Assembly: GCA_002839315.1 (NCBI GenBank)
Contig: PGXV01000001.1
Location: forward strand, 62,001 to 126,000
DNA from: Spirochaetae bacterium HGW-Spirochaetae-3
GTDB taxonomy: Bacteria; Spirochaetota; Spirochaetia; Treponematales; UBA12059
DNA length: 64,000 bases
Reading direction: 5' to 3'
Shown: in pieces, positions 50,052-54,518 of the stretch
Layout: the number at the start of each line of letters is the position of its first letter
How positions within the stretch are numbered: position 1 is the stretch's first letter
Made by a program: the position numbers and the translations under genes
The notes under the pieces: model-generated
What the model was told of the DNA's origin: nothing
What the model saw: only the letters and a program-made list of their open reading frames with translations
Databases searched by the model: none

Positions 50052-50666
50052 ATGGAACGAAGAGATTACATAGTAAACCTCGTAACGTCGCCCGGAGGCA
50101 TGGCGCTCGACGCGTTGTCCGTCGCGGTAGGCATCGGCGTAGGGCTGGTATCGGGACCGGCTCTCGGCATCGTCGCCGGAGTCGCGTCGTACGCGGTCAT
50201 ATTCGCGATCGTCATGGTGAGCGGACTGGGCTCCACGATGGCCTCGTCCGAGATGGATCGCCGCGCCTGGTCAGCCGCCCGAGGCCATCTGGCCGCCGCA
50301 AAGGAGGCCAGGAATCGCCTGGCCTCCATGCGCGTGCCTGATCCGGAGATAAAGGCGCTGCTCGAACTGGCCGCGACCCGAGGCGTCGCCTACCTGGCCG
50401 CGTGCGAGTCGGCCAGGTCCCGGGATCCGCTGGCCGAGGACGCGCTCGCCGAATGCGTCTCGATAGCGGACCTCTACCTGAAGGAGCTGGACGGAGCGGC
50501 CACGGAGCGCCGATACGGCCTCGCGGACGCGGACCCGTTCGCCGACGCCAGGGCCAGGACGGCCGCGGCGCTACGCGACAAGGCGGCGATAATCGAGAAG
50601 GCCGCGCTCGATCTTTCCGGGGGCTTGTCTCCGGCCGACAGGATGGGAGTCAAGGAGTCTCTATGA
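50052..50666 (+). CDS. Small membrane protein, first gene of the radical SAM/Cys-His-tail unit
   Basis: A 204-residue protein with two adjacent N-terminal membrane helices (about residues 17-58, ALSVAVGIGVGLVSGPALGI and YAVIFAIVMVSGL) and a helical Ala-rich cytoplasmic region (about 70-200). I do not recognise the family. Its stop overlaps the start of the DUF2207-like gene (ATGA), so the two are translationally coupled and likely functionally linked. Confidence 0.7.
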   Translation: MERRDYIVNLVTSPGGMALDALSVAVGIGVGLVSGPALGIVAGVASYAVIFAIVMVSGLGSTMASSEMDRRAWSAARGHLAAAKEARNRLASMRVPDPEIKALLELAATRGVAYLAACESARSRDPLAEDALAECVSIADLYLKELDGAATERRYGLADADPFADARARTAAALRDKAAIIEKAALDLSGGLSPADRMGVKESL

Positions 50667-52327
50667 ATACCCGACGCGACCTCAGAGCCATCGCGCTCGC
50701 GATCGTCCTGGTTACGCTGACCGTAGTCCCGGCGTCCGCCCTTTCCAGCGATCTCGTCTCGGCCGAGACGACGGTCTTCCTGAGGCCTGACGGCAAGGCC
50801 GATGTCTATTACCTCCTCGAGTGGAACGTGAGCAGCGGCGACATGAGCGGCTTCTACTTCCAGGGCGAGGCCTTCGAGCCGGTCTGGAACCTGGAACGGT
50901 GCTGGGCCGACCTGGACGGGGGCGTACGCGTCCCGCTAGCCGTGAAGGACCTGGGCGGAGGCCGGTACGACATCGTGCTGGCCGGCGGCCGGCGCTTCTC
51001 GGGTCGGGCCCATTACTCGATGAACTATGCCGGCGACTTCGCGCGGGCGGGGCTCGTCGGTTCTACGGTCAGCCCGGAACGCGGGGAGCTGGTCTATTTC
51101 GACTGGGCGCCGGTAGAATGGGATGAGCCCCTGGAATACCGGGCGGTCAGGCTCGTGCTACCTGTAAGGGTCTCGGGCAAGCAGCTGACGGACGCCGAGA
51201 AAACCGCCGTCCCGATGCTCACCGAGGCATGGGTAAACGACCAGAACAAGATCGATTACTACGGCTCGCCAGGAGACGACGGCGGTTTCTACCTGACGAT
51301 ACTCTTCTACCAGGAGTCTACGCGGGCGCTCGAGACCCAGCGGCTGGCCCTCTATTTCCCTTCCGATTACCTACCGCTTCATGCCGCCCTGACGAGCCGG
51401 GATTCCGTTCCGGCGAGCGAGGACGCGATACGGGGCGACGTCCGGGATCGCAAGGCGTGGAGGGATTCTCCGATGGCCGCGATCGTCGTCTTCGGGGCCG
51501 TCATCGCCGCGGCGCTGCTCCTGTACGCCAGGCGCGCCAGGGCGCACGCGAAGCGAGCCGAGCTCGTGGAGTCCATAGCGTGGGCCGGCGACGCGTGGAC
51601 GCCGCCCAAGCTGTTCGCCGGTAGCTATCAGGTGCCCGGCAAGGTTCCCGAGGATCTCCATCCCGTCGAGGCGGCCCTGCTCCTCGAACTGGCCCTGCCT
51701 CGCATCGCGTCCATCATGCTGGAAGGGCTCTCGGCCCAGGGCCTCGTCGCCGTCGAGCGCGACGACCCGCTCAAGCTGCGATTCTTGTCGGACAGCAAGG
51801 CGGGCGACGAGATAGAGGAACGCTTCCTCGCGTCGTTCGACGCCGAGGGCAACGTGCTCGCGGGGCTCCTGGCGGACTTTTTCGAGGAATCGATCAAGAA
51901 GCTACAGGAGAAGATATGGGATTGCGACCTCGAGGCGACCAAGGCCTTCTATCGGAAGAAGATTCTGGAGGCCCAGGCCAAGGCCGACGAGGTGGATCGC
52001 TGGGAAGAGACGCGGCGGCTCGATTACTACAGGACTAACCACTCGTGGATGTACTGGCGTAGCTACGCGATCGTGTCGACGCGCCCGGACTATATGTCGG
52101 GCGTGCGCCTGCCCGCGGGCATGACGGCCGGGTACGCCGACTTCATGCGATCGGCCGTCTGCTATTCCGGTTGCTTCACGCCGACCGACGTAGGCACCGT
52201 AGACGCCTGCCATTCGGCCTGCCACAACGCGTGCCATGACGCGTGCCATTCGGCCTGCCACTCCGCATGCCACTCGGCCTGCCATAGCGCCTGCCATTCG
52301 GCCTGCGTATCGGGGAGCTCCCATTGA
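50663..52327 (+). CDS. DUF2207-like membrane protein with C-terminal Ala-Cys-His repeat tail
   Basis: A 554-residue protein. Signal peptide to about 26 ([10 protein letters not shown]), an extracytoplasmic beta domain (27-265, with [15 protein letters not shown]), one membrane helix (about 269-290, [18 protein letters not shown]) followed by RRARAHAKR, so the C-terminal half should be cytoplasmic. That half contains [20 protein letters not shown], a winged-helix-like DUF2207 feature, and a coiled segment. The last 40 residues are eight Ala-Cys-His-x units plus one Ala-Cys-Val-Ser, then GSSH. The next gene is a radical SAM/SPASM enzyme overlapping by 4 bases (TTGA). Tail modification is my inference. 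ATG 50663 is chosen because it follows the signal pattern and overlaps the previous stop. Confidence 0.8.
   Translation: [554 protein letters not shown]
52205..52312 (+). repeat. Nine-unit 12-bp coding repeat (Ala-Cys-His-x tail)
   Basis: Nine consecutive 12-base units encode [12 protein letters not shown], five further ACHS and ACVS. Synonymous codons differ between units (GCC/GCG/GCA, CAT/CAC, TCG/TCC/AGC). The amino-acid pattern is therefore conserved beyond what recent DNA slippage would give, indicating selection on the peptide. Confidence 0.9.
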
Positions 52328-53655: not shown

Positions 53656-54518
53656 GACTCGGCATCGGTTCCAGGCTCGTAGCGGCGGGCGCCCTGTACG
53701 CGGGCGCCGTAGCCGCGCAGGTAGCGCTGGACTCGGTCGTCGCGGGCGCGCCGCTCATACTCGTCGCGTGGCTGTTGCTGGCGCTCAAGCCGGCGACGAA
53801 CAGGCCCAAGGACAAGGGCCTGGAGGAATGGCGGGCGGTGACCGACGGGGAGGTCGCGCGCATAGCCGACGGCCTCGCCAGGTCGAAGAAGCTCAGGCGC
53901 GCCGTCGTCGGGCCTTCCGTGCTCAAGACGTTCCTGCTCGTATTCCTGCTGTTCGCCGCGTTCGTCGCGACGATGGAGCGATCGCGCGTCGGCCTCGTCA
54001 TATTCGATCTGTGCCTGTTCTCTATTCCAGGGTTGTTCTTCGGCATGATCAAGGCGCACGTACCGTTCGAGCTGGACCTGAAGCTGTCGCGGTTCGTGGC
54101 GGCGATGGGCGTTCCGAGGCCCGACGGGTTCGCGTTGACGCCGTACCTTCGCTTCGACGAGGACGACCAAGGCCGCGACGTGCCCGAGGACCTGCGCCTG
54201 ATGCTCGAGCCCCGGCGCAAACCGGTAGACCTCGTCGGGGTTCAATTCCAGGCCGCCATAAACAAGGGCGCCAACGGTAACGTGCCGTATATGTACGCCG
54301 TCGTATTGACGAAAGGCAGGGACGGGCCCAGTTACGGCGTCCTCAGGACGATGAAGGCCCGCGGATACGAGGTAGAGGCGGGCGGCGACGCCAATTACGG
54401 CACCGTGGTCGTGCGCCAGGACACGGGCGGCGGCGGCTACCACACCACCGACGACGATTGCGAGCGGCTCATGGACCTGATGATCAAGGCGCTATCGCGA
54501 GTGGAGGCTTCGGCGTAG
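53631..54518 (+). CDS. Membrane protein, last gene of the radical SAM unit
   Basis: A 295-residue protein with four hydrophobic segments (about 14-29, 35-50, 100-115, 125-140), then a soluble region of about 150 residues ending GGGGYHTTDDDCERLMDLMIKAL. I do not recognise the family. The ATG at 53631 has AAGGAGG upstream and overlaps the radical SAM gene by 25 bases; a longer in-frame ORF from 53529 is not credible. Possible export or anchoring partner. Confidence 0.72.
   Translation: MENRFKFLRLGIGSRLVAAGALYAGAVAAQVALDSVVAGAPLILVAWLLLALKPATNRPKDKGLEEWRAVTDGEVARIADGLARSKKLRRAVVGPSVLKTFLLVFLLFAAFVATMERSRVGLVIFDLCLFSIPGLFFGMIKAHVPFELDLKLSRFVAAMGVPRPDGFALTPYLRFDEDDQGRDVPEDLRLMLEPRRKPVDLVGVQFQAAINKGANGNVPYMYAVVLTKGRDGPSYGVLRTMKARGYEVEAGGDANYGTVVVRQDTGGGGYHTTDDDCERLMDLMIKALSRVEASA

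Follow-up and report, generated by a model that had tools for sequence, protein, structure and literature searches.

A 554-residue membrane protein with a C-terminal Cys/His repeat and the radical SAM/SPASM enzyme encoded directly after it almost certainly form an obligate pair, in which the enzyme probably docks on the membrane protein and modifies its ACHx repeats in situ. Both genes lie in a 64,000-nt stretch of Spirochaetae bacterium HGW-Spirochaetae-3 (GCA_002839315.1, contig PGXV01000001.1, positions 62,001 to 126,000, forward strand), the whole of which is called the window here and supplies the coordinates used below. A preliminary description of this DNA had claimed a tight four-gene unit at 50052-54518 on the + strand, and this is borne out by the bounds, lengths and overlaps of the open reading frames. 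Gene 1 (P0001, 50052..50666, + strand) encodes a small membrane protein of 204 aa, gene 2 (P0002, 50663..52327, + strand) the signal-anchored membrane protein of 554 aa with the Cys/His tail, gene 3 (P0003, 52324..53655, + strand) the enzyme of 443 aa, and gene 4 (P0004, 53631..54518, + strand) a membrane protein of 295 aa. The overlaps are 4, 4 and 25 bases for genes 1/2, 2/3 and 3/4, respectively. Directly 5' of the operon is a gene for an OmpA-family-like protein (48595-50004), which is kept upstream in about a dozen loci. Farther away, the window also contains a side-by-side pair of short 7-bp tandem arrays, AGTGATC and ACTGATT, at 42773-42849.

The pairing is most evident in the distribution of the two genes. 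A close-relative scan of bacterial and archaeal species genomes, which provides all of the coverage beyond the phylum, yields 36 loci, nearly all of them from spirochaete MAGs. Gene 3 directly neighbors gene 2 in every locus with a long enough contig, and genes 1 and 4 are usually alongside. Within the phylum, true gene 2 matches occur in 22 of 393 genomes, a count that leaves out low-complexity frames and one truncated fragment in G225, and gene 3 matches at E <= 1e-60 occur in exactly those 22 genomes, adjoining gene 2. G225, a genome of 69% completeness, has only an N-terminal fragment, which seems to run off the end of its contig; this fragment aside, each of the two, tail protein and enzyme subfamily, is found only with the other. 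Conserved linkage in other genomes had been set beforehand as the test of the proposal, and it held in every case (22/22 co-occurrences, none alone, 393 genomes). The enzyme subfamily is well separated, since in its own genome gene 3 scores E 3e-232 and the next radical SAM protein 1e-14. Because the 22 genomes fall into only five family-level groups (f1, f4, f28, f38 and f41), their co-occurrences cannot be counted as independent events. The linkage establishes a functional relation between genes 2 and 3, and it fixes neither the modified residue nor the operon protein that carries it.

Several other matches were considered and rejected. Matches confined to the tail come from low-complexity or microsatellite frames in G302, G366, G073 and G380:C42, and three pattern matches on viral contigs are other frames of a phage-like repeat gene. 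A locus labelled Chloroflexi (L036) is taken to be an assembly or binning artefact rather than a genuine relative; its positions 1-435 are identical to window 51971-52405 over 435 bases and the sequences diverge thereafter. Plasmids contain only PqqE/MftC-like relatives below 60% identity. In one genome, an intact copy of the enzyme gene is accompanied by a further, incomplete one that is interrupted by a TAG stop (G372:C3:7532-8011).

The tail of gene 2 (52160..52324, + strand; residues 500-554) consists of CYSGC, then eight ACH[S/N/D] units and ACVSGSSH, and the C-terminal sequence is [57 protein letters not shown]. The translation thus contains the repeat array that was claimed earlier, with ACVS after eight ACH[S/N/D] units. 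These last 55 residues contain 11 Cys with a 4-residue spacing within each run, and a CxxxC pair (C500, C504) precedes the repeat units. In an alignment of 29 full-length homologues, of which the others are 34-74% identical to the window protein, invariance extends to all 11 Cys columns and to seven His and eight Ala columns of the repeat, so that the tail is nearly unchanged while the body of the protein falls to 34% identity. The number of repeat units is constant at 9 in all 29 core homologues, with no unit gained or lost. Tail codons differ pairwise by 8,441 synonymous and 905 non-synonymous changes, and invariant tail Ser sites are encoded by both TCN and AGY codons. Because the codons drift freely while the protein sequence is held, purifying selection acts on the tail peptide and the repeat does not reflect a recent DNA expansion.

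The AF2 model of gene 2 places a beta ectodomain at about residues 28-233, a single TM helix at about residues 270-305, which also agrees with the hydrophobicity and charges of the homologues, and a cytoplasmic domain at about residues 334-473, ahead of the tail. The ectodomain is modelled with confidence, and a tail helix at residues 513-549 is modelled at low confidence. All of the gene 2 homologues are predicted to have a hydrophobic segment at the N-terminus and one TM helix near residues 271-305, with 2-6 positive charges right after the helix and usually fewer negative ones. By the positive-inside rule, these charges suggest that the C-terminal domain and the tail are cytoplasmic. A weak hydrophobic stretch near residues 335-353 is interpreted, in line with the AF2 model, as the core of that cytoplasmic domain rather than another TM helix. 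The preliminary description called the protein DUF2207-like, which is weakly supported: P0002 itself has no Pfam match, but 6 of the 29 homologues match PF09972 weakly (best E 2e-4), in their N-terminal domain. A Foldseek comparison with the PDB returns only a ribophorin/M1-aminopeptidase-like beta domain and is uninformative for function. Two stretches of the protein, LQEKIWDCD and FMRS, are very conserved among the homologues.

Gene 3 matches PF04055 (E 1.4e-21) and PF13186, both above cut-off, and it reaches no equivalog cut-off among the NCBIfam matches listed (25 families). Ten Cys are invariant in 35/35 enzymes (114, 118, 121, 334, 348, 366, 403, 406, 412 and 416). The first three form the CX3CX2C motif (C114, C118, C121; 52663..52686, + strand) that had been proposed for radical SAM chemistry, and this assignment is confirmed by the PF04055 match, by the invariance and by the radical SAM fold of the model. 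The remaining seven lie in the auxiliary-cluster region (53323..53571, + strand; PF13186) as C334, C348-X12-G-X4-C366 and C403-X2-C406-X5-C412-X3-C416. The earlier claim of a full seven-Cys SPASM set is correct as to number but not as to arrangement. Relative to the consensus used here (CX9-15GX4C-gap-CX2CX5CX3C-gap-C, 7 Cys), gene 3 fills six canonical positions, the canonical last Cys after CX2CX5CX3C is absent, and the extra C334 is located upstream; no conserved Cys occurs beyond C416 in the 35 enzymes. By comparison with anSME, one auxiliary cluster would presumably be fully ligated and the other would have three Cys; the lack of the last Cys hints at an open site in one auxiliary cluster.

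Approximately the first 90 residues of gene 3 (52324..52593, + strand) may form an RRE/PqqD-like domain of strands followed by helices. The PqqD-like assignment made at the outset is weak by sequence, with PF05402 matching 4 of 28 family members at E 0.016-0.06, below the gathering score, but it is supported by the predicted fold. In the model (pTM 0.80), strands at residues 23-40 and helices at residues 43-83 stand ahead of the radical SAM domain. The model aligns best with SkfB, SuiB and anSME, and VIA-align alignments begin at model residues 9-14 for SuiB and at residue 20 for SkfB. The early start of the SuiB alignment is consistent with an RRE in gene 3.

The other two genes of the operon are less constant companions. 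Gene 1, whose product has one or more hydrophobic segments at the N-terminus and is soluble in its C-terminal part, is present only in core spirochaete lineages, and a profile search does not find it in the f28, f38 and f41 loci or in L034. Gene 4 encodes a conserved C-terminal domain and three hydrophobic helices, near residues 31-49, 97-115 and 122-140; it has no convincing relative in the PDB, and neither it nor gene 1 has a convincing Pfam family. Homologues of gene 4 also occur in L038 and L039 and weakly in L034, and none is found by profile search of the f38 loci. In L038 (f28) and L039 (f41) the pair is kept together with the gene 4 homologue, and the tails have 10 and 8 regularly spaced units, respectively. 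In the f38 loci (L040-L045), the gene 2 proteins have about 920 residues with a body that aligns only in part, and their tail, [45 protein letters not shown] or a sequence very like it, is rearranged to (ACHS)3ACV-type blocks. In all six f38 operons, proteins of 421-446 aa and 177-186 aa follow the enzyme in place of gene 4, and zinc-ribbon-like CxxC pairs are found in the smaller protein in 6/6 operons and in the larger one in L040. Because the pair persists while the rest changes, the tail protein and the enzyme appear to be the core of the system, and genes 1 and 4 accessory to it. In L034, labelled Proteobacteria, an operon with tail, enzyme and gene-4-like protein (5155-10543) lies directly upstream of rnfC, rnfD, rnfG and rnfE-like genes; Rnf electron-transport complex genes are not seen at the window.

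The linkage makes it quite likely that the tail is the substrate of gene 3. The TTG start codon of gene 3 overlaps the gene 2 stop, which suggests that the two proteins may be made in coupled synthesis. The RRE-like domain would then bind a segment of gene 2, perhaps LQEKIWDCD or FMRS, and the active site would proceed along the ACHx units on the cytoplasmic side. The enzyme could reach the tail there, because the positive-inside rule puts the tail in the cytoplasm. Cys would be the natural target, since SPASM enzymes that act on Cys-rich substrates are best known for forming thioether bonds. One possible product, to which we give somewhat less than even weight, is a thioether-type (sactionine- or ranthionine-like) bond from Cys to a neighboring residue, with a mass loss of about 2 Da for each bond and at most 9-11 bonds in a tail. 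Epimerization, His-directed bonds or other chemistry may occur at the tail instead. The tail probably stays on the membrane protein, because no peptidase or ABC-transporter family is recognized in the four-gene unit (Pfam, NCBIfam). We tentatively suggest, again with slightly less than even weight, that the full-length protein retains the modified tail, which would give this envelope protein a structural, metal-binding or redox element. A more specific form of this model, which we regard as less likely than not, is that the radical SAM enzyme modifies a full-length TM envelope protein repeat by repeat, leaving a poly-crosslinked Cys/His rod permanently on its cytoplasmic end instead of giving rise to a released peptide, with a unit number that is fixed in the core lineage.

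Cys/His arrays are able to bind metal without modification. It is conceivable, if unlikely, that the tail is an unmodified array for Zn, Cu(I) or Fe-S and that the enzyme acts elsewhere, for example on gene 4 or on a small molecule. The spacing of Cys and His fits soft-metal binding, the f38 operons gain two more genes of which at least one encodes CxxC pairs, and Cys-rich MNIO products have known metal-chelating roles (PMC12452194). However, the tail and the enzyme remain together in f38, where genes 1 and 4 are not found, and an RRE-like domain is typical of peptide maturases. The Ala and Ser positions of the tail are conserved as well, which metal binding alone would not need.

It is less probable again, and we consider it rather improbable, that the tail is modified, cut off and released as a small peptide, as in a classical RiPP with an unusually long leader. 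An RRE-type enzyme and a C-terminal core position are both RiPP-like, and radical SAM action on repeat cores is known from TvgA/TvgB (PMC9062424). The leader in this case, however, would have to be some 500 residues of a conserved membrane protein, ectodomain included, and the four-gene unit has no recognized peptidase or ABC-transporter family for such a release. The idea that the repeat is a slippage-prone DNA tandem array without a function of its own has practically nothing left to recommend it beyond the 12-bp array that TRF finds at 52204-52306, since it is already contradicted by the conservation of the tail, with 9 units in all 29 core homologues, synonymous divergence between units while the protein is held, and an obligate link to the enzyme.

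If the substrate/maturase reading is true, then the range of radical-SAM peptide modification would extend beyond short peptides that are secreted or released and take in a large membrane protein that the cell retains. The system would also be a clean test case, as it has one enzyme and one short tail of near-identical units, and the pairing is strict in distant spirochaete families. A tail of this length could be synthesized, and the predicted ladder of mass shifts would be easy to read. Apart from the general radical SAM and SPASM domains, the tail protein and the enzyme subfamily reach no named-family cut-off in Pfam or NCBIfam (June 2026). Among the papers searched, none joins radical SAM/SPASM enzymes with DUF2207, or radical SAM enzymes with an ACGX or CXXX repeat, and a search for ACHSACHS matched only an unrelated word.

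The nearest known ideas are the Cys-Xaa-Xaa-Xaa-repeat and His-Xaa-Ser radical SAM systems of NCBIfam and the MNIO-linked TIGR04222 membrane proteins, and the pair falls into none of the families tested among them. TIGR04117 (Syntroph_Cxxx), named as a radical SAM target protein, also has a Cys at every fourth residue of a repeat, but its model spans 98 positions rather than a 554-aa membrane protein; the tail reaches 9.5 bits where the cut-off is 50, and TIGR04119 (CXXX_matur, cut-off 150 bits) has no match in the same genome at E up to 5. The His-Xaa-Ser system (HxsA, HxsB/HxsC) likewise has a repeat-bearing target beside radical SAM enzymes, with His and Ser in the repeat, but its defining motif lacks Cys and it uses two radical SAM proteins; against HxsC (TIGR03977, cut-off 267.9 bits), gene 3 reaches 49.7 bits. 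The name of the ACGX system (TIGR04340) points to a radical SAM/SPASM enzyme paired with an Ala-Cys repeat of 4 residues. The tail described here differs in having His instead of Gly after Cys and a membrane protein body, and gene 3 scores 68.6 bits against the TIGR04340 cut-off of 400. The nearest solved structures to gene 3 are the SPASM/twitch-type radical SAM maturases SkfB, SuiB, CteB and PqqE, which are only about 15-23% identical, act on small peptide substrates and may differ in their auxiliary Cys pattern.

Two further systems offer parallels. In TvgA/TvgB, a radical SAM enzyme acts repeatedly on a tetrapeptide (TVGG) repeat with a loss of 2 Da each time, although the substrate is a small precursor peptide without Cys and the reaction is Val cyclopropanation (PMC9062424). 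TIGR04222 proteins are membrane proteins with an extracytoplasmic domain and a Cys-rich C-terminal tail; they are encoded next to MNIO (DUF692) enzymes and may be modified as full-length proteins (PMC12452194). The preliminary description knew of no characterized product of the proposed type, and TIGR04222/MNIO qualifies this as a described parallel in which large membrane proteins are putative substrates (PMC12452194). Its enzyme is an MNIO and not a radical SAM protein, its tail is Ser/Gly-rich and predicted to be periplasmic whereas that of gene 2 is predicted to be cytoplasmic, and about a third of the genomes with TIGR04222 genes have no MNIO genes (PMC12452194). TIGR04222 is also absent from the eight families that the 29 gene 2 members match at E up to 5. 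TvgB is the nearest parallel for repeat-wise radical SAM action (PMC9062424), and the combination of a Cys-rich tail on a membrane protein with an adjoining modifying enzyme has its nearest parallel in TIGR04222/MNIO (PMC12452194).
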